Shown piece after piece: positions 20,211 through 29,143 of a stretch of 64,000 bases of DNA (position 1 is the first letter of the stretch; each line of letters starts with the position of its first letter). A program made the position numbers and the translations under genes. This stretch comes from Thalassolituus maritimus (GTDB lineage: Bacteria; Pseudomonadota; Gammaproteobacteria; Pseudomonadales; Oceanobacteraceae). Below the pieces are notes generated by a model. That model was not told the DNA's origin. It did not search any database and saw nothing but the letters and a program-made list of their open reading frames with translations. Where the stretch lies: the NCBI GenBank assembly GCA_913019975.1, contig CAJWBH010000014.1, forward strand, positions 1 through 64,000, read 5' to 3'.

Positions 20211-23200
20211 CTATCGACTGAGGCTCGCTTTGTTGTGACTTCGCCTGTGAAGCCAGAAGTAGAGCACAGGCACAACAAACAAGGTTAATGTGGTTGCCGA
20301 GATAATGCCGCCGATCACCACAGTGGCGAGTGGCCGTTGTACTTCTGCGCCAATACCCGTATTTAAAGCCATCGGTACGAAGCCAAGCCCCGCAACCAGA
20401 GCTGTCATCAATACCGGGCGCAAACGCATGGTCGCGCCCTGAATGACAGCGTCGCGCAAAGCGACGCCCTGATCACGCAGTTGGCGAATGAAGGTCAGCA
20501 TGACGAGGCCGTTCAGTACCGAGATTCCGGACAGTGCGATAAAGCCCACGGCCGCTGAGATAGACATAGGCATTCCTCTCAACCACAGCAGGAATATTCC
20601 GCCGGTCAGGGCCAGTGGTACACCGCTGAAGATAATTAAGGCACCGCGCAGATTCCCGAACGCCGAGATCAGCACGAACAGGATAAGCGCCAGAGTGGCT
20701 GGTACCACCCAGCGCAGCCTTGCTTCGGCTGACTGGAGTTGCTCGAAAGTGCCGCCGTATTCCAGCCAGTAACCGCTGGGTAAACTCACCTCTGAGGCCG
20801 CTTTCTGCCGGACCTCTTTGACGAAACTGCCGAGATCACGACCACGCACATTGGCACTGACGACGATGCGACGCTTGCCGTTTTCGCGACTGATTTGTGC
20901 CGGAGCTGGCGCGAGAACGACATCCGCGACTTCGCTCAGAGGCACAAATCCGCCATCAGCGAGCGGTATAGGAAGCGCTTTGATCAGGTCTGCATTCTCG
21001 CGCAGAGGCTCGGGAAACCTGACGACCAGGGGAATGCGTTGGTCCCCACGATAGATCAGCCCCGCTTGCTGTCCGCCGACAGCCGTCGATAGCAGAGACT
21101 GAATATCATCGACCGTCAAACCATAGGCCGCCAATTTCTGGTGGTTTGGATGAAGTGTCAGCACGGGTAGCCCTGTGACCTGCTCGACCCGGACATCGGC
21201 GCTACCGTCCACTGAGTTAAGCAGGGCAGCAACCTCATTCGCTGCAGTAAGAAGCTGGCTCAGGTCATCACCGAACACTTTGACGCCAAGGTCGGCGCGT
21301 ACTCCAGAGATCAGTTCGTTGAAGCGCATCTGGATGGGCTGAGTGAATTCATAGTTATTACCCGGGAGTTCCCGCACGCTGGCTTCAATCTGCTCTACCA
21401 GATCCGCTTTATGCCGCTCCGGGTCCGGCCATTGTGCCTTGGGCTTGAGGATGATGAAGGTATCCGCGACATTGGGCGGCATAGGGTCGGTCGCGATCTC
21501 CGGTGTGCCAAGCCGGGAGAAAACAGTCTTAACTTCAGGGAAGGTAAGAAGGCGCTCCTCAAGTAATACCTGCATATCTAACGACTGTTGTAGAGAGGTG
21601 CCGGGAATACGCAAGGCATGGAGTGCAATATCCCCTTCATCCAGCTGAGGAATGAATTCTGAACCGAGGCGAGTGCTGAGAATCACGGCGCCAACGATAA
21701 GCAGGGCGGCAGAGCCGATCAAGATCACAGGAGCCCGCAAGGCAGTGCGCAGAAGTCGCTCATAAAGTGACTGGTAGCCGTATCGCTTTGATTCGACAGA
21801 CGACGCGCCAGATGGCTCGGTATGATGAACGCCTGTCCCGTTCCTCAGAAACACAGCGATAGCGGCAGGCACCAGCGTGATACTGATGATCATGGCGGAG
21901 AGCAGGGCGATCACCACGGTCGCTGCCATCGGATGAAACATCTTTCCTTCGATGCCGGTGAGGCTGAAGATGGGGATATACACCAGAGTGATGATGGCGA
22001 CGCCGAACAGGCTGGGTTTCATCACCTCTGCGGTTGCTGAGTACACCAGTTCAAGACGCTCGCGCAAGGTCAGGGCTGACCCGCTGGCGCTCAGGCGCCT
22101 CACGCAGTTTTCGACGATGATGACAGCGCCATCAACGATCAGGCCGAAGTCCAGAGCGCCCAGACTCATGAGGTTGGCAGATACGCCGGCCTGAACCATG
22201 CCGGTGATTGTTGCCAGCATCGCCAGAGGGATAACCGCGGCGGTAATCAGTGCTGCACGCAGATTGCGCAACATGATGAACAAAACAAAAATAACCAACA
22301 AAGCGCCTTCAAGTAGGTTGGTCTGTACCGTCGCCAGCGTCTTGCCCACCAGGTCTGTGCGGTTGTAAACGACTTCGGTCGTCACGCCATCGGGGAGACT
22401 GGTTGCGATATCTTGCAGGCGGCGTTTAAGCGCTTCCGCAACCTCTTTCGGGTTTTCCCCCATCAGCATCATGGCACTGCCCAGTACGGTTTCTGAGCCA
22501 CCGCGTGTCGCCGCGCCTGTGCGTAACTCTTCGCCCTGAGTGACCTCAGCAAGGTCCCGGATGCGCACAATGGCCGTACCGTTGCGAGCCACCACGGTAT
22601 CGCGGATATCTTCTATCGACTTCAGTTGACCGACGGCTCTTACCAGCTGTTGTTCCCCATGGACTTCGATATAGCCTGCGCCACGATTGCTGTTGTTGCG
22701 CCTGATCGCGGAGACCAGCTGAGGCACCGTGATCTGGTGTTGCAGTAACAAGGCTGGGTCAGGGCGGATATGAATCTGCTCTTCGAAGCCACCGCTGGTA
22801 TTGATCTCGGCGACGCCCGCAACCTGAGCCAGTTGCGGGCGTATTATCCAGTCCTGCACGGTACGCAAAGCCATTGCATCGTACGGGCTGCCATCCGGCT
22901 GACGAGCATCGCTGTCGGCCGTGACGGTATAACTGAAGATTTCACCCAGTCCGGTACTGATTGGCCCCATCACCGGCTTCAGACCTTCAGGTAGGGCGTC
23001 GCTGATTTGGCCCAGTCGCTGATCAATCAGATTTCGTGCGTGATAGATATCAGTGCCGTCTTTGAAGACGACCGTCACCTGTGACAGGCCGTAGCGCGAT
23101 AAAGAGCGCGTATATTCGAGTTGTGGCAAGCCGTAGAGCGCAGTTTCTACCGGAAACGTCACCCGTTGCTCGGCTTCCAGAGGCGAGTATCCGGTAGCTT

Positions 23201-23354
23201 CCGTATTAATCTGAACCTGAACGTTGGTGATGTCCGGTACAGCATCAATGGGTAAATAGCGATAACTCCAGAGTCCGGCGGCAATCAGAACCAGGCTGGA
23301 GGCCAGCATCATGAAGCGTCGCTCCACTGCCAGCCGTATTATGGCATTCAGCAT
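20211..23354 (-). CDS. czcA: Heavy-metal RND efflux pump, CzcA family
   Basis: Inner-membrane proton-driven pump of a tripartite heavy-metal exporter. The 1047-residue length is typical. The N-terminal LPIDAVPDITNVQVQINTEA, the membrane motif DFGLIVDGAVIIVEN in the fourth helix region and the duplicated 12-helix layout with two large periplasmic loops mark the HME-RND group. The Asp residues of the VDG motif carry protons. The DITNVQVQ signature favours Zn/Co/Cd/Ni over Cu/Ag pumps, but this does not settle the metal. It is the last gene of a czcI-like/czcC/czcB/czcA operon. Confidence 0.95.
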   Translation of the reverse strand: MLNAIIRLAVERRFMMLASSLVLIAAGLWSYRYLPIDAVPDITNVQVQINTEATGYSPLEAEQRVTFPVETALYGLPQLEYTRSLSRYGLSQVTVVFKDGTDIYHARNLIDQRLGQISDALPEGLKPVMGPISTGLGEIFSYTVTADSDARQPDGSPYDAMALRTVQDWIIRPQLAQVAGVAEINTSGGFEEQIHIRPDPALLLQHQITVPQLVSAIRRNNSNRGAGYIEVHGEQQLVRAVGQLKSIEDIRDTVVARNGTAIVRIRDLAEVTQGEELRTGAATRGGSETVLGSAMMLMGENPKEVAEALKRRLQDIATSLPDGVTTEVVYNRTDLVGKTLATVQTNLLEGALLVIFVLFIMLRNLRAALITAAVIPLAMLATITGMVQAGVSANLMSLGALDFGLIVDGAVIIVENCVRRLSASGSALTLRERLELVYSATAEVMKPSLFGVAIITLVYIPIFSLTGIEGKMFHPMAATVVIALLSAMIISITLVPAAIAVFLRNGTGVHHTEPSGASSVESKRYGYQSLYERLLRTALRAPVILIGSAALLIVGAVILSTRLGSEFIPQLDEGDIALHALRIPGTSLQQSLDMQVLLEERLLTFPEVKTVFSRLGTPEIATDPMPPNVADTFIILKPKAQWPDPERHKADLVEQIEASVRELPGNNYEFTQPIQMRFNELISGVRADLGVKVFGDDLSQLLTAANEVAALLNSVDGSADVRVEQVTGLPVLTLHPNHQKLAAYGLTVDDIQSLLSTAVGGQQAGLIYRGDQRIPLVVRFPEPLRENADLIKALPIPLADGGFVPLSEVADVVLAPAPAQISRENGKRRIVVSANVRGRDLGSFVKEVRQKAASEVSLPSGYWLEYGGTFEQLQSAEARLRWVVPATLALILFVLISAFGNLRGALIIFSGVPLALTGGIFLLWLRGMPMSISAAVGFIALSGISVLNGLVMLTFIRQLRDQGVALRDAVIQGATMRLRPVLMTALVAGLGFVPMALNTGIGAEVQRPLATVVIGGIISATTLTLFVVPVLYFWLHRRSHNKASLSR

Positions 23355-23363
23355 GTGACCTCC

Positions 23364-24341
23364 TTAGTGCTGATGGGCAGCACCGGATTTTCCGATGTCT
23401 GCTTTTATCAGGTAGCTGTTGTCGGTCACGTATTCTTCGCCCGGATTCAGCCCGGCCGTTATTTCGGTGAACTTCTCGTCACTGGCGCCGGTGGTAACCG
23501 GGCGTGCCTGGTACTCGCCGTCGTGATGTACAAACACCACGGTATTGCCTTCGTGGGTTTGCAGAGCACGATTCTCGACTCTTACCTGCGCGACGGTTTC
23601 GGCGGTTGTGATGTGAACAAGTGTCACCTCGCCCGGCGTCAGGTCGTCATGTGAGTTGGACACCTTAGCCCGCGCTCGCCAGTAGGGCCGGCCATGAGCG
23701 GGAGGGGCAATGGAATCGATCTGTGTCGAGATATTGTGGGCAGGCAGAGTTACTGGCTGTCCAGCTGCAACCTGAGTCCTTTGAGATGGGTGTACTGGGA
23801 TTTCCAGCCAGAGCCCGGACAGGTCAACGATCACAAATAAGGGTTCGCTGCTCGCCAGGTTGCCTGACGCCGCATGGCTGTCGCTGATAACGCCTGAAAT
23901 CGGTGATCTGACCTCATAGCGACTCAGGCTTTCATTGCTTTCGATGGTGGCCAGTGTTTGCCCTTTCTTAACGCTATCGCCGGGGGCGACCCGGACATCG
24001 GTAATCAGGCCGGGAAAGCGCCCGCTGAGCTGGATCTCCTGTTGAGGCGGTACTACCAGAGTCGCGAAGATGGGGAGTGTTTCGTTTACAGCACCAGACG
24101 ATGCAACCGCCGTTATGATGCCGTTTGCGGTGGCCATCGCAGCAGAGATCTTCGTCGTCTCGCTACTATTATCATGCTCATGCTCATGCTCATGCTCATG
24201 CTCATGCTCTTGGTCATGACTATGCTGTTGTTCATGGCTATGCCCGTGGCCTTCTTCGTGCTCATGATCGCCAGATGCGTGTACTGTTAAAGACAGGCTA
24301 AGCAGCAGGCAGATAGCCAGAGAGTGTGGTCGATACATCAT
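23364..24341 (-). CDS. czcB: Heavy-metal RND periplasmic adaptor with His-rich N terminus
   Basis: Membrane-fusion subunit linking the RND pump to the outer-membrane channel. The 325-residue protein has a signal peptide (about 1-21) and then an exposed stretch with 14 His in about 40 residues, including six consecutive EH dipeptides, a likely zinc or copper collecting segment. A barrel-sandwich region (LSGRFPGLITDVRVAPGDSV, KKGQTLATIES) and beta-barrel domains follow. The His tract is encoded by a hexanucleotide tandem repeat. The start overlaps the end of czcC by 4 bp (ATGA). Confidence 0.93.
   Translation of the reverse strand: MMYRPHSLAICLLLSLSLTVHASGDHEHEEGHGHSHEQQHSHDQEHEHEHEHEHEHDNSSETTKISAAMATANGIITAVASSGAVNETLPIFATLVVPPQQEIQLSGRFPGLITDVRVAPGDSVKKGQTLATIESNESLSRYEVRSPISGVISDSHAASGNLASSEPLFVIVDLSGLWLEIPVHPSQRTQVAAGQPVTLPAHNISTQIDSIAPPAHGRPYWRARAKVSNSHDDLTPGEVTLVHITTAETVAQVRVENRALQTHEGNTVVFVHHDGEYQARPVTTGASDEKFTEITAGLNPGEEYVTDNSYLIKADIGKSGAAHQH
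24172..24209 (-). repeat. Hexanucleotide tandem repeat coding His-Glu
   Basis: Six perfect TCATGC units (plus strand) are followed by a partial copy. On the coding strand they encode the His-Glu run of the adaptor. Loss or gain of units keeps frame and changes the number of metal-binding His residues. Confidence 0.9.
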
Positions 24342-25615
24342 TGTGGGGTGTCCTGTGTTGTCTGGTTACTTACTGCCCGGGCGGTTAATTCTTCTATCAG
24401 GGTGCGGCTGATCAGAGCGGCGCTGGCACTGCTGATCAGCTGGCGCTCAGCCTCAATCAGTTCTTCCCGAGCGATATGCCAGTCCTGATAGCGGTAACGA
24501 CCCTGGGCGTATCCCTGCCCGACCTCATCCATGGCTCGTTTAAGTAATGGGATGATTTTTTGTTGGTAGGTAATCACGCTGGCGGAGTGTTGCTGCAAGG
24601 CGCTCCAGGCGGTGTGAAGTCTTTGGGTTACTTCTCGTTTATGGGCCTGGTATTCATATTCACTCGCGACGGCACGCTGGCGGGCTGAAGTGGCTGCGGA
24701 TGATCCGCGACGACCGCTGAAAAGAGGGATGCTGGCGGCCGCGCTCAGAGCCTCATCGCGACTCTCTGCAAAGTGAGTAACGCCGACCCGCCACTCTACG
24801 CTGCCGGCATTCTGGGCCTGTACCAGTGTCGAGTCGGCTTCTGCCAGCCGTGCTTTGCTGGCATACATCTCCAGGACCAGCGCATCATCAACAGCGCTCA
24901 GCAGCTGAGGAAACTGACCGGGCGGGGTACTCAGATCGAACAGGTTGCCTGTCAAGCCGAGCTCTCCGCGGGGCTCCCCGGGTGTCATCCAATAGCTTGT
25001 GAGTCGGTAAATATCGTTATCCAGCTGTAGGCGGGCCTGCGCTACGGCAGAGGCTGAGCGCTCCAGTGCCGCTTCAGCGCGAAGTTGATCGTTCATCGGA
25101 GCGGCGCCGCGCTGGTGGCGTTTTTCAACGACCGCCAGCGCCTGTCTATTCAGGCGCAGGCTTACTTCTGCAATCCTGAGCCTTTCCTGCGAGGCAAGCG
25201 CCGCTATGTAGGCGCGGGTAACATCGCTCAGTAACGATAAGGTCCGGGACTTACTCTGAGCTTCTGTGAGTTCGTAGGCCGATAGTGCCTGTTGGCGGCG
25301 GGCTCTGCGCTGCCCGCCCAGTTCGATAACCGACGACAGGGCGAGGATGTACTCAGCCTGTGCTGCCTGTTGGTAGCTGCCATTACCGATAAGGTTGTCG
25401 GCCTCGCCACTGAGAATAAGCGGCGGAGCTAACGCCTGCGTATCGACATTGGCCTTGCTGGCACGCTTAAGGGCCGAATACGCTCTGAATTGTGGGTGCG
25501 CCGCTTGCGTGCGCTGAATGGTTTCATCGAGGGTCAGGGCCTGAGATGGCACTGACCACAAGGTACTGAGGCTCACAATCAGGCCCACAGCACCGCGTGT
25601 TATTGGTGATTTCAT
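24338..25615 (-). CDS. czcC: TolC-family outer-membrane channel of metal efflux system
   Basis: Outer-membrane efflux protein, 425 residues from the ATG at 25615, which gives a signal peptide (KSPITRGAVGLIVSLSTLWS, cleaved after SQA). The long heptad-like helices and the duplicated outer-membrane-efflux repeats are visible (LDETIQRTQAAHPQFRAYSA, then a second copy near residue 225). An upstream in-frame start at 25666 would put extra residues before the signal peptide and is rejected. It lies between the small His-rich gene and the adaptor, with a 4 bp overlap into the latter. Confidence 0.93.
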   Translation of the reverse strand: MKSPITRGAVGLIVSLSTLWSVPSQALTLDETIQRTQAAHPQFRAYSALKRASKANVDTQALAPPLILSGEADNLIGNGSYQQAAQAEYILALSSVIELGGQRRARRQQALSAYELTEAQSKSRTLSLLSDVTRAYIAALASQERLRIAEVSLRLNRQALAVVEKRHQRGAAPMNDQLRAEAALERSASAVAQARLQLDNDIYRLTSYWMTPGEPRGELGLTGNLFDLSTPPGQFPQLLSAVDDALVLEMYASKARLAEADSTLVQAQNAGSVEWRVGVTHFAESRDEALSAAASIPLFSGRRGSSAATSARQRAVASEYEYQAHKREVTQRLHTAWSALQQHSASVITYQQKIIPLLKRAMDEVGQGYAQGRYRYQDWHIAREELIEAERQLISSASAALISRTLIEELTARAVSNQTTQDTPQ

Positions 25616-25690
25616 AAAATTTCCTGAATAGCTGATCTGTCGGGCAGCCATAAGGCAGCCCGGCAACGAGTGGCGTTATCGTTCAGCTAT

Positions 25691-26071
25691 TCAGGCAATC
25701 GGAGGGCGACAGATCCCAGTGACGGGAGAGTGCGGTGGCCGGACAAAAGGGCCGGACTGTTTAATAGTCACACTACTCAGTTGTGGTACCGACCAGCGCT
25801 GAGGCAGCGTGGTAGGAGTTGTGTGTTGGTGGCTGTGACAACCTGCGTGACCAGTTTCCGGGCAAGCGTCCTCTGCTGTATGGTCCTGATGCTCATGATC
25901 GCTATGGTGGGCGGCATCATGATGGGCAATGTCTGAGGCGTTGGGATCGGCAGCAAAGACATCCGTCACTTCATTAAAAGGAGCGAGATTCTGCAACATC
26001 AGCACAAGCAGCATCATCACCAGCGCAGGTGATGTTCGGGATAGCTGATGTTTGCGGTCAGTCGCTAGCAT
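25691..26071 (-). CDS. Small exported His-rich protein, CzcI-like
   Basis: A 126-residue protein with a hydrophobic segment near the N terminus (SPALVMMLLVLMLQNLAPF) and a periplasmic region rich in metal ligands: HHDAAHHSDHEHQDH, then CPETGHAGCHSHQH. The tail reads GPFVRPPHSPVTGICRPPIA. Small proteins of this layout precede czcCBA operons (CzcI) and are thought to tune metal response, though their mechanism is unclear. It is the first gene of the operon, 83 bp from the divergent sigma-factor gene. The assignment rests on position and composition. Confidence 0.7.
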   Translation of the reverse strand: MLATDRKHQLSRTSPALVMMLLVLMLQNLAPFNEVTDVFAADPNASDIAHHDAAHHSDHEHQDHTAEDACPETGHAGCHSHQHTTPTTLPQRWSVPQLSSVTIKQSGPFVRPPHSPVTGICRPPIA

Positions 26072-26154: not shown

Positions 26155-26739
26155 ATGGCAGCAGAAAACCAGTTGCACGTGACCTTTCGTGACGAAGATA
26201 TAGAAAGTCTGCGCAAGCAGATGCTCAGTTTTGCGCGACTGCAGCTCGATGATGAGCATCTGGCCGAGGATGCGGTGCAGGAAGCTCTGGCCGGTGCGTT
26301 GAAAAATGCCTCTTCTTTTTCCCGCCAATCGACTCTGAAAACCTGGGTTTTCTCTATTCTGCGAAGAAAAATTGCGGATGTACTACGTGGGCAATACCGG
26401 GAACCGGTGCGCGAAGCCTGTAAGGAATGCAGCACGGACGACGACGAACTCTTTGATGGACGTGGGCATTGGCAGGCGGGAGCGACCCCCAGGCGCTGGG
26501 GTGACACGCATGAACTGGCTGATAACACTCAGTTCTGGCAGGTGTTTGATATCTGTCTTGAGGCACTGCCCGCAGAGCAGGCAAGGGTGTTTATGATGCG
26601 TGAATTTATTGAGCTGGATTCCGCAGAAATCTGCGCCTCGCTTGAAGTGTCGACGAGTAACCTTCACGTTCTTCTGCACCGTGCACGCCTGAAGTTGCGG
26701 GCATGTTTATCTGATCATTGGTTCGAGAGGGAGGCCTGA
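26155..26739 (+). CDS. ECF-type RNA polymerase sigma factor
   Basis: A 194-residue sigma factor with region 2 (DDEHLAEDAVQEALAGAL, then SFSRQSTLKTWVFSILRRK) and region 4 with a helix-turn-helix (SAEICASLEVSTSNLHVLLH, RARLKLRACL). A linker of about 50 residues between them contains a Cys (KECSTDDDE). It is followed 2 bp later by a small zinc-finger protein, the usual cognate anti-sigma layout. It lies between the divergent metal-efflux operon and the EGKCG peptide gene, so metal-responsive control of one or both is the natural inference. Confidence 0.92.
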   Translation: MAAENQLHVTFRDEDIESLRKQMLSFARLQLDDEHLAEDAVQEALAGALKNASSFSRQSTLKTWVFSILRRKIADVLRGQYREPVREACKECSTDDDELFDGRGHWQAGATPRRWGDTHELADNTQFWQVFDICLEALPAEQARVFMMREFIELDSAEICASLEVSTSNLHVLLHRARLKLRACLSDHWFEREA

Positions 26740-26741
26740 CT

Positions 26742-26936
26742 ATGTTGAGCTGTGAGCAAGCTACCCGTTTGTTATCCGAAGGGCAGGACCGCACTTTAAC
26801 CTTCCCCGAAAAAATGAACCTGAAAGTGCACACCGCAATGTGTTCCGGCTGCCGCGAATTTGGTCGTCAGCTGGGCTCGCTAAGAACCTTGATTCAGGAA
26901 GAAAAAGACGCTGGGCCTGCGTCCGGTAAAAAATAA
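26742..26936 (+). CDS. Small zinc-finger (zf-HC2-type) putative anti-sigma factor
   Basis: A 64-residue soluble protein starting at the ATG 2 bp after the sigma gene. It has the anti-sigma zinc-finger pattern: an upstream Cys in MLSCEQATRLLSEGQ and then HTAMCSGCREF (His, Cys, Cys) in the second half. It has no membrane segment, so any sensing would be cytoplasmic, through zinc displacement or thiol oxidation. The pair is inferred to be a sigma/anti-sigma switch. Confidence 0.82.
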   Translation: MLSCEQATRLLSEGQDRTLTFPEKMNLKVHTAMCSGCREFGRQLGSLRTLIQEEKDAGPASGKK

Positions 26937-26946
26937 TTTCTGTTCC

Positions 26947-26973
26947 TGTAAGAAAAGTGTCGGCAGGTGCGAC
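26947..26973 (+). promoter_or_regulatory. Candidate ECF-type promoter of the EGKCG peptide gene
   Basis: TGTAAG and CGAC are separated by 17 bp, a layout like many ECF promoters, 54 bp upstream of the peptide start. No second copy of the motif was established, so this is tentative. Confidence 0.3.
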
Positions 26974-27027
26974 TTACTCTATGTGCGGCAGAACCGCTGC
27001 TAATTTATTAATCAGAGAGAAATCAAA

Positions 27028-27351
27028 ATGAAAAAGACCATGACAACTTTATCTGCTGCAATGCTTCTTGGTGCCGCTTCGGCCACAGTCAGTGCTGCTG
27101 AAAATCCATTTGCATCACAGTCGCTGGAATCTGGTTATCAGGTTGCGGGCCACCATGCAGAAAAATCTACTGAAGGTAAGTGTGGCGAAGGCAAATGCGG
27201 TGCTAAGTCTGAATCTGAAGGCAAGTGCGGTGAAGGCAAATGCGGTGCTAAGTCTGAAGCCGAAGGTAAGTGCGGCGAAGGCAAGTGTGGCGGTGCCAAG
27301 TCTGAATCTGAAGGTAAGTGCGGCGAAGGCAAATGCGGCGGCTCTAAATAA
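27028..27351 (+). CDS. hvfA: HvfA/bufferin-like RiPP metallophore precursor with eight EGKCG motifs
   Basis: A 107-residue exported peptide. Residues 1-23 are a signal peptide (KKTMTTLSAAMLLGAASA). A short conserved leader-like region (NPFASQSLESGYQVAG, 27-41) matches the pattern of HvfA/BufA1 precursors. The rest is four tandem units of EGKCGEGKCG plus a spacer, giving eight EGKCG motifs and Cys52, 57, 67, 72, 82, 87, 98 and 103. In characterised members such cysteines are converted by an MNIO (DUF692) enzyme with a DUF2063 partner into copper-binding heterocycles, and the peptide buffers copper in the periplasm. Neither enzyme is encoded in this window, which is unusual. A DoxX-family gene follows 28 bp later. 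Confidence 0.88.
   Translation: MKKTMTTLSAAMLLGAASATVSAAENPFASQSLESGYQVAGHHAEKSTEGKCGEGKCGAKSESEGKCGEGKCGAKSEAEGKCGEGKCGGAKSESEGKCGEGKCGGSK
27172..27348 (+). repeat. In-frame tandem repeat coding EGKCGEGKCG units
   Basis: Four units of 45, 45, 48 and about 39 bp, each coding EGKCGEGKCG plus an AKSES/AKSEA/GAKSES/GSK spacer. Codons vary at synonymous sites (GGT/GGC, TGT/TGC, AAG/AAA), so the copies are not freshly duplicated and seem kept by protein-level selection. Confidence 0.92.
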
Positions 27352-27379
27352 GAGTCCTCTGGCAGAAAAAGGCTGACCG

Positions 27380-27979
27380 ATGCTCAGAACAATGACTCAA
27401 CACTATAACGCTGTACTTCAGCGGATCCTGCATCTCGATGGTCTTGCACCTCTGTTGCTTCGGCTTTATCTGGCGCCAGTGATGATGCAGGCGGGTTGGA
27501 CGAAATTCCAGTCGTTCGACAGTACAGTGGCATGGTTTGGTAACGCTGACTGGGGCCTTGGGTTGCCATTCCCTGAGCTGATGGTTGTGCTGGCAGCAGG
27601 CACCGAGCTGGTGGGCGGTGCACTGCTGATACCGGGCATTGCAGTGCGGTTGGTCAGTATCCCGCTGATGGCGACCATGGTCGTCGCGGCCCTGACGGTG
27701 CATCTGGAATATGGCTGGCTAGCCATTGCAGACAGTAGTTCGTGGCTGGCCAATGAGCGTGTGCTGGAATCGGCGGAACGTCTCGAGCGGGCAAAAGGTA
27801 TCCTGCAGGAGCATGGAAACTACAGCTGGCTTACCGGGCGTGGCTCCCTCGTTGTCCTTAACAACGGTATTGAGTTCGCAGCAACCTATTTTGTTATGTT
27901 GCTGACCTTGTTGTTTACCGGCGGTGGCCGCTATACCAGCGTTGACTACTATGTTTCACGCTTCCTGAATCGCAACTGA
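27380..27979 (+). CDS. DoxX-family membrane protein (HvfD-like)
   Basis: A 199-residue membrane protein of the DoxX/DoxD type with four hydrophobic segments. The family core LAPLLLRLYLAPVMMQAGWTK (first helix) and PELMVVLAAGTELVGGALLI (second helix) is clear. In HvfABCD and related operons the fourth gene is such a DoxX protein, thought to act in membrane redox or copper handling linked to the modified peptide. Here it follows the precursor directly, without the hvfB and hvfC genes that normally separate them. A terminator ends the unit. Confidence 0.85.
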   Translation: MLRTMTQHYNAVLQRILHLDGLAPLLLRLYLAPVMMQAGWTKFQSFDSTVAWFGNADWGLGLPFPELMVVLAAGTELVGGALLIPGIAVRLVSIPLMATMVVAALTVHLEYGWLAIADSSSWLANERVLESAERLERAKGILQEHGNYSWLTGRGSLVVLNNGIEFAATYFVMLLTLLFTGGGRYTSVDYYVSRFLNRN

Positions 27980-28082: not shown

Positions 28083-29003
28083 TCAAGGTACCTTCGCGAT
28101 TTTATAGGGGTTAATTCCGTCATTCGGGCGGCGCTTAAAGCGTTTATAGGTCCACTGATATTGAGCCGGGCATAGACGCACGCAGTTCTCGATAGACTGA
28201 TTCATTGCCGTTGCGGATATTACGGGGTCTGGATCAAACTGCTCCGGCAGGGCGTCGAATAAATGAATATCGAAGCCTTCGGCATTGGGTAGGCGTTCGC
28301 CGAACGCATAAATCACCTGACAGCCGGTTTCGCGGATCATCTGATGCGGCAGTGTTGGTGTCAGGGTTTCAACCCCCATAAAAGGTGCGAATACGCCCCG
28401 CTCACGCTTGGGCTCCTGATCTGGCAGAAAGCCAACGACCTTACCCGCATTAAGAGTGGCGAATAACGCCTTCACGCCGCCACCCGTCGTCGGTACCAGT
28501 TCCGCACCGACGGCCTCCCGGCGGGAGACCATCCAATCGCTGAAATTCTTAACCTTTGCGGGCCGATACATAATAGTCGCCGACGTTAAGGTGGCCAGCC
28601 AGGCACTGACGATCTCCCAATTGCCAAGGTGCGGAGACATAAATAACAGGCCGCGTTTATCTGCGAGCTTTTGCTCTAACAGTTCCTGATTGTGGACCTT
28701 CCGGACCATTGTCAGCAGTTTTTCATGCGAGTAGCCCCACATGGGCCCCATCTCGCCGCCTGTCATGCCGTTCTGAATAAGCGTGTCGTAGAGCAGGGTC
28801 TCACGGTAATCCTCGCTTTTATCAGCAAAGCACATCGCCAGGTTCACCCGGGCAACTTCGCGTGATCGGGTCCGCTTTGATGCCAGTCGTTTCCCTAACA
28901 GACGACCGATACGTTGAGCGGTTGGCAACGACACAAGCCCCATAAGCTTGACCGCGCCAATCATCAGGTAGCCAATCAGATTATTCACATTTCTCACCTT
29001 CAT
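28083..29003 (-). CDS. LpxL/LpxM-type lipid A lauroyl/myristoyl acyltransferase
   Basis: Inner-membrane acyltransferase that adds a secondary acyl chain to a lipid A precursor. The HX4D/E-type catalytic motif is SPHLGNWEI, preceded by RGLLFM, and the family blocks FLPDQEPKRERGVFAPFMG and QWTYKRFKRRP are present. Which of the LpxL or LpxM activities it has cannot be told. The ATG at 29003 was chosen; a TTG at 29024 or a GTG slightly downstream are alternatives. It is a stand-alone minus-strand gene divergent from a response regulator. Confidence 0.88.
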   Translation of the reverse strand: MKVRNVNNLIGYLMIGAVKLMGLVSLPTAQRIGRLLGKRLASKRTRSREVARVNLAMCFADKSEDYRETLLYDTLIQNGMTGGEMGPMWGYSHEKLLTMVRKVHNQELLEQKLADKRGLLFMSPHLGNWEIVSAWLATLTSATIMYRPAKVKNFSDWMVSRREAVGAELVPTTGGGVKALFATLNAGKVVGFLPDQEPKRERGVFAPFMGVETLTPTLPHQMIRETGCQVIYAFGERLPNAEGFDIHLFDALPEQFDPDPVISATAMNQSIENCVRLCPAQYQWTYKRFKRRPNDGINPYKIAKVP

Positions 29004-29143
29004 CAGAGTGGCCAAAGTGTACAACCTACGCCATTGGCGGTCACTTTCTGAGCCTCTGCTAAGCTTAAATGATCCCCGCAGGATATGGGGAAACCAAACT
29101 TCAGCAAGATAACCAATTAGTCGCAGTCGGGATTGTCATCGTT

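Follow-up and report, generated by a model that had tools for sequence, protein, structure and literature searches.

We propose that an hvf metallophore system is here divided between two loci, with HvfB and HvfC acting in trans, and that one of its halves lies in the window (the whole 64,000-nt stretch of Thalassolituus maritimus DNA that was analyzed), a reading that we hold to be probable (about 0.83). Unit 1, in the window, consists of an ECF sigma factor, a zinc-type anti-sigma factor, an EGKCG precursor, and HvfX; unit 2, on contig C15 of the same genome, consists of a second EGKCG precursor, HvfB (MNIO), and HvfC (RRE partner). HvfB and HvfC are each present once in this genome, the precursors have an N-terminal region in common, and the arrangement recurs.

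The precursor gene in the window is the ORF at 27028-27351 (+), which encodes 107 amino acids with 8 Cys and, as a first-pass annotation of this DNA had stated, contains eight EGKCG motifs, the first at 27172 and the last at 27325. It matched NF050137 (HvfA-family repeat; repeated KCGExKCG core) over four stretches with an E value of 2.4e-24 and 84.7 bits (cut-off 19.5). Because it reached 62 of the 95 bits required by NF050188, a narrower model for HvfA, and the C15 precursor likewise fell short (67.3 bits), we filed it as an HvfA-family protein and not as HvfA itself. A Sec-type signal peptide region, MKKTMTTLSAAMLLGAASATVSAA, judged by eye from the ORF, spans 27028-27099 (+) and is followed at 27100-27171 (+) by a leader beginning ENPFASQSLESGYQV, which by an N-terminal profile is common to enzyme-linked precursors; the core, identified by motif count and NF050137, occupies 27172-27348 (+) and contains four EGKCGEGKCG cassettes. 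The DoxX-type gene reported to come directly after the precursor was likewise confirmed: the ORF at 27380-27979 (+) encodes a 199-aa protein that is HvfX by NF050144 (229.2 bits, cut-off 80) and by Pfam DoxX. It is 99% identical to the HvfX of Thalassolituus maritimus DSM 24913, a culturable relative that shows this arrangement too (L013/G027), and, in a whole-genome search, is the only full-length HvfX of the genome (next match 46.3 bits, below the cut-off).

Directly upstream of the precursor, on the same strand, we detected two genes absent from the first-pass annotation. One, at 26155-26739 (+), encodes a 194-aa ECF sigma factor of the TIGR02943 family (226.6 bits, cut-off 162.2; Pfam Sigma70_r2 and r4_2), and the other, at 26742-26936 (+), encodes a 64-aa zinc-type anti-sigma factor, for which family searches on stretch 26718-26933 returned NF052368 (75 bits, cut-off 50) and PF13490 zf-HC2 (31.8 bits, cut-off 22.2). 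We noted that the anti-sigma pattern read from the sequence, C4-X25-H30-X3-C34-X2-C37, agrees with the ZAS zinc motif C/H-X23-26-H-X3-C-X2-C as worded in the text of PMC7907618, and that a sigma gene followed by a small anti-sigma gene with a ZAS motif is the arrangement of the RpoE2-HrsE and SigE-MseR type. A promoter-like element, TGTAAGAA-N15-CGACTTA, lies at 26947-26976 (+), 81 nt ahead of the precursor start. An acyltransferase gene at 28083-29024 (-) is convergent to HvfX. Divergent from the sigma gene, at 20211-26071 (-), are an efflux set and, on the same strand, a gene whose product matches CopL weakly (25 bits, cut-off 40); the set (20211-25666, -) comprises a pump named by eye as heavy-metal RND (20211-23354, -) and, by Pfam, a fusion protein and an outer-membrane protein. 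The RND-type efflux set was dropped as a member of the unit: among the fetched loci, it adjoins the unit only in G027 and G030.

According to the first-pass annotation, the two maturation enzymes are missing, which is true of the window, where no MNIO or DUF2063 gene lies beside the precursor and HvfX, but untrue of the genome. The whole-genome search for these genes that had been suggested there was run on the 3.49-Mb assembly (34 contigs, 99.9% complete, the window being on contig C14) and returned one PF05114 (MNIO) match and one PF09836 (DUF2063) match, both on C15 and neither on C14. The MNIO is HvfB (NF003818, 417.5 bits, cut-off 360), and the DUF2063 protein is HvfC (NF050145, 205.6 bits, cut-off 142); their genes are adjacent to each other downstream of the second EGKCG precursor, which has 10 motifs, and the whole-genome search found no HvfX at this locus. 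Instead of the canonical hvfABCX adjacency, A-X is located on C14 and A-B-C on C15. Co-occurrence of precursors and enzymes would look no different were modification confined to the C15 copy. The gene after HvfC on C15 is one that we take to be MlaA/VacJ-like; such a gene was seen downstream of HvfC at L003 11222-11971, L207 7897-8508, L211 6852-7664, and L213 3340-4104, directly after HvfC in three of these four inspected enzyme loci and one gene further in L207, and it is present even at enzyme loci without a precursor.

A comparison with relatives, also suggested in the first-pass annotation, was made across 44 genomes of the family, our own included. EGKCG repeats occur in 35 of these, MNIO in 39, and HvfX over the cut-off in 33; MNIO is present in 34 of the 35 genomes with an EGKCG precursor, the exception (G011) being 72% complete. 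We defined as split, by a cut of our own, any genome with a full-length HvfX (over 220 bits) and no PF05114 match within 5 kb, which excludes weaker over-cut-off HvfX matches in G008, G011, G012 (its second one), G040, and G041. Among the 29 genomes with full-length HvfX, MNIO lies within 5 kb in 14, lies farther away or on another contig in 14, and was not found in one (G020, counted as split), which makes 15 of the 29 split. Contig breaks do not explain the split in G028, since there HvfX and MNIO are 1.59 Mb apart on a single contig. A precursor is present at both loci in seven split genomes (G000, G001, G019, G027, G028, G030, and G031), beside HvfBC only in five (G014, G015, G016, G029, and G034), and beside HvfX only in two (G004 and G018). 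Without trans action of HvfBC, it is difficult to account for a precursor that can reside at either locus. Further, no precursor-like ORF was seen beside the HvfBC pair of G004 or G018, and the only EGKCG precursor found in each lies far from its only MNIO; that the only precursor accompanies HvfX while HvfBC stand alone elsewhere argues for maturation in trans. Enzymes acting from another locus, one of three readings offered in the first-pass annotation, are well supported by the single HvfB and HvfC on C15 and by the precursors of relatives at either or both loci.

A TIGR02943 member over the cut-off is present in all 15 split genomes and adjoins HvfX in 14; in G016, HvfX has no adjoining sigma gene, the sigma gene being 32 kb away. 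Of these 14 split genomes, G004 alone has the sigma gene divergent from the anti-sigma gene (L187 4223-5111). The precursor of G018 (L191 6047-6424), the only EGKCG-type precursor found in that genome, has GSCG instead of GKCG in four of its six repeats. At L193 (G020, C23:118000-130000), sigma factor, anti-sigma factor, and HvfX are present, and neither an EGKCG precursor nor MNIO was found in this 93% complete genome, nor was the promoter-like element found at the unit. Judging from G020, HvfX may act without a peptide.

Beyond the family, 204 HvfX relatives were obtained from 84,980 species genomes, and the best 80 of the 204 were kept. Nine of these best 80 stand beside an EGKCG precursor with no HvfB match in the fetched stretch (A-X loci; one of them, L084, is near a contig end). 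Of the nine A-X genomes among the best 80, seven have MNIO elsewhere, and in the other two (L067 and L084, both MAGs), MNIO was not found. A-X loci L013, L014, L015, and L049 correspond to family genomes G027, G030, G031, and G018, and four of the seven genomes with MNIO elsewhere are already in the family counts.

The rival reading that survives best, although we consider it improbable, is that the window precursor undergoes no modification before export and serves as a plain cysteine/thiol metal buffer, the C15 copy alone being matured. The window precursor is indeed physically unlinked from the enzymes, and "not modified" is named as an option for unlinked precursors in passages of PMC12452194. 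However, G004 and G018 keep HvfBC, and without trans action those enzymes have no EGKCG substrate found; moreover, the signal-leader region of the window precursor is kept as in enzyme-linked copies, a resemblance that makes the thiol buffer put forward in the first-pass annotation the less likely option. To compare this region, a profile was built from the N termini (signal peptide plus leader) of 22 enzyme-linked precursors. It scored 42.7-58.5 bits against nine of nine A-X precursors and 58.5 bits against the region in the window, versus at most 8.9 bits against 180 shuffled controls of N-terminal regions. When run on 3,454 ORFs (40 aa or longer) drawn from 42 stretches, L003 and the window among them, it gave 33 matches, one of which is without repeats (E 0.014). 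By this profile, then, all precursors appear to share one signal-leader region. HvfBC modify HvfA with a preference for the signal peptide-bearing form, according to passages of PMC13419390, and the N-terminal region is therefore the likely handle. N-terminal likeness need not mean recognition by HvfBC, given that FonBC tolerate each single alanine change ahead of the core, as stated in the text of PMC13097082.

It is even less probable that the window locus is a broken-off or decaying piece of hvfABCX. In the usual A-B-C-X order, A and X occupy the two ends, and the EGKCG precursor is missing beside HvfX in G014, G015, G016, G029, and G034, as such decay would have it, but the window ORFs are intact, and a promoter-like element precedes the unit. 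The recurrence of the HvfX-MNIO separation in 15 of 29 genomes, together with a separate HvfX clade, also makes a poor fit with a canonical operon split by rearrangement, the case that the first-pass annotation had set against its own account. In a tree of 41 HvfX proteins, the bootstrap of which was unsettled (0.977), a 100/99 branch separates the window HvfX from the 14 linked HvfX proteins of the family. All 13 split rows are on the side of the window HvfX, which also holds the linked HvfX of Marinobacterium, Neptuniibacter, and Amphritea and the HvfX of Alteromonas, Shewanella, and Rheinheimera. In the HvfB tree, deep branches were weak and the Methylophaga row was very long, and two forks only were used: the one joining G004 to its linked congeners G006, G007, and G009 (100/100) and the one joining G028 to linked G002 and G003 (97/87). 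The trees took 13 of the 15 split HvfX and 12 of the 14 split HvfB sequences, near-duplicates being omitted. The histories of HvfX and HvfB seem to differ, at least in G004 and G028; the discord of the trees would be explained if a sigma-A-X unit had been acquired and the local X lost, along with the local A in the case of G004. Least probable of all is the remaining proposal of the first-pass annotation, a local enzyme of unrecognized kind that modifies the window peptide, for which we found no evidence: a proper HvfBC pair exists in the genome, and between the anti-sigma and acyltransferase genes, family matches or homologous neighbors were obtained for the precursor and HvfX only, in a search that left aside overlapping mechanical ORFs.

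We next consider the control of the two units. The pattern TGTAA-N14..19-CG[AT]C was matched by 13 of 15 X-side units within 250 nt upstream of whichever gene follows the anti-sigma gene (in G016, upstream of HvfX). A weight matrix was made from 11 X-side sites, with near-duplicates G027 and G015 dropped as sites and kept in the counts, and 14 of 15 X-side loci, mostly its training set, scored 17 or more, G020 giving none. When applied to enzyme loci, on which it had not been trained, the matrix scored 15.5-24.1 in 8 of 14 split genomes (G014 and G015 among the eight being near-identical), scores equaled by at most 0.15% of 4,000 random 200-nt windows taken from the fetched loci with the sites left in. 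Fifteen enzyme loci were scanned, of which that of G032 (HvfX not found, no element) is outside the 14 counted. A search of the 200 nt upstream of the enzyme operon found no element in the window's own genome or in G027, G028, G030, G031, and G034 (best scores 0.4-11.0), and the two units may therefore not be co-induced in these six genomes. A copy scoring 20.0 was seen at L003 8578 (C15:46577), 635 nt before the C15 precursor and inside the coding sequence of a helicase gene, presumably hrpA; it is kept in G027 and G030 and less exactly in G032, and, as it sits in the coding sequence of near relatives, we counted it neither for nor against.

Over the cut-off, the sigma family is present in 24 of the 44 family genomes, including all 15 split genomes and 5 of the 14 linked ones, all of genus g8, in which the sigma gene is unlinked to hvf. 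The linked operons of genus g8 have the element in five of five cases (four by matrix and G038 by pattern), and it was found in none of 12 hvfABC(X) loci from genomes in which the sigma factor was not found (best score 10.9). The difference between 13 of 19 loci with the sigma factor present and 0 of 12 where it was not found gave a Fisher p of 1.4e-4, uncorrected for kinship. As judged from these sequences, the association of element and sigma factor appears strong among genomes that are related and in some cases incomplete. The exact core pattern had 4 matches in the whole genome against 15 for a reversed control pattern and is thus not enriched genome-wide as such. Autoregulation of the sigma gene by the element was rejected, there being none scoring 12 or more in the 300 nt upstream at any of the 14 loci scanned. 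The element provides a candidate promoter sequence for this ECF sigma group.

Under the two-locus model that we prefer, envelope stress, possibly an oxidant or a metal, would free the sigma factor from the anti-sigma factor, and the freed sigma factor would then transcribe the precursor and HvfX, presumably from the element at 26947. The HvfBC enzymes supplied by unit 2 would bind the common N-terminal region of the window precursor and probably turn core Cys into 5-thiooxazoles before Sec export; the exported peptide would be predicted to bind copper in the envelope, with HvfX sitting, on this model, in the inner membrane. We expect the chemistry to follow the known route, as given for 5-thiooxazoles in passages of PMC13097082 and PMC13419390. 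More tentatively, and in our view less likely than not, one HvfBC pair might serve two separately controlled precursors, the C15 copy being sigma-independent and the window copy being made with HvfX on sigma release only, and HvfX might belong to the sigma response and not to the maturation enzymes; in G014, G015, G029, G034, and G020, it still follows the sigma and anti-sigma genes although no precursor accompanies it. If so, the cell would shift the amount, type, or place of the thiooxazole peptide under stress.

The H. influenzae oxazolin/hvfABCX system, as described in the text of PMC13419390, comprises an EGKCG precursor with a Sec signal, the MNIO HvfB, the RRE partner HvfC, and the DoxX-like HvfX, and all four protein families are present in the Thalassolituus genome. 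Whereas the passages on H. influenzae place the genes in one operon, here there are two loci and two precursors, and HvfX is parted from the enzymes. The RpoE2-HrsE pair of H. influenzae and the SigE-MseR pair of N. meningitidis, like the pair described here, combine an ECF sigma factor with a small ZAS-type anti-sigma factor (text of PMC7907618); in those two species the sigma factor controls a cluster with a DoxX gene (passages of PMC7907618 and PMC3240639), as it may do here. RpoE2 drives expression of a DoxX/UPF0276 (COG3220)/DUF2063 cluster; in the text of PMC7907618, this hvf cluster lies away from the sigma locus, whereas here the precursor and HvfX are sigma-linked. The text of PMC3240639 places a DoxX gene, together with three hypothetical genes, in the SigE operon of Neisseria meningitidis; here sigma linkage is limited to the precursor and HvfX. 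Unit 2 on C15 resembles the Microbulbifer bulbicupramide operon mmrABC (EGKCG precursor, MNIO, DUF2063; PMC12538549), for which the main text mentions no DoxX and its passages describe no second, sigma-linked precursor. The mmrABC proteins were undetected with or without added copper, according to the same text, and a copper response can therefore not be assumed.

Precursor genes unlinked to MNIO have been reported in passages of PMC12452194, where modification from another locus or none is proposed, the core genes are said to occur in "various combinations," and MNIO is missing in 67 of 2,583 Buf_EGKCG genomes; the passages of that survey describe no sigma/anti-sigma/A/X unit and no genomes whose HvfBC lack an accompanying precursor. 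Our literature search, which covered titles, abstract starts, and passages, did not find the split hvf form. Overall, precursors unlinked to the enzymes have been published before, as has control of hvf genes by a sigma factor, and what is described here is a real, recurrent two-locus variant, in which HvfX goes with an ECF sigma factor instead of the enzymes. The survey's open remark on unlinked precursors becomes a clean test in genomes of the G004 and G018 type, which combine one HvfBC pair with one distant precursor.
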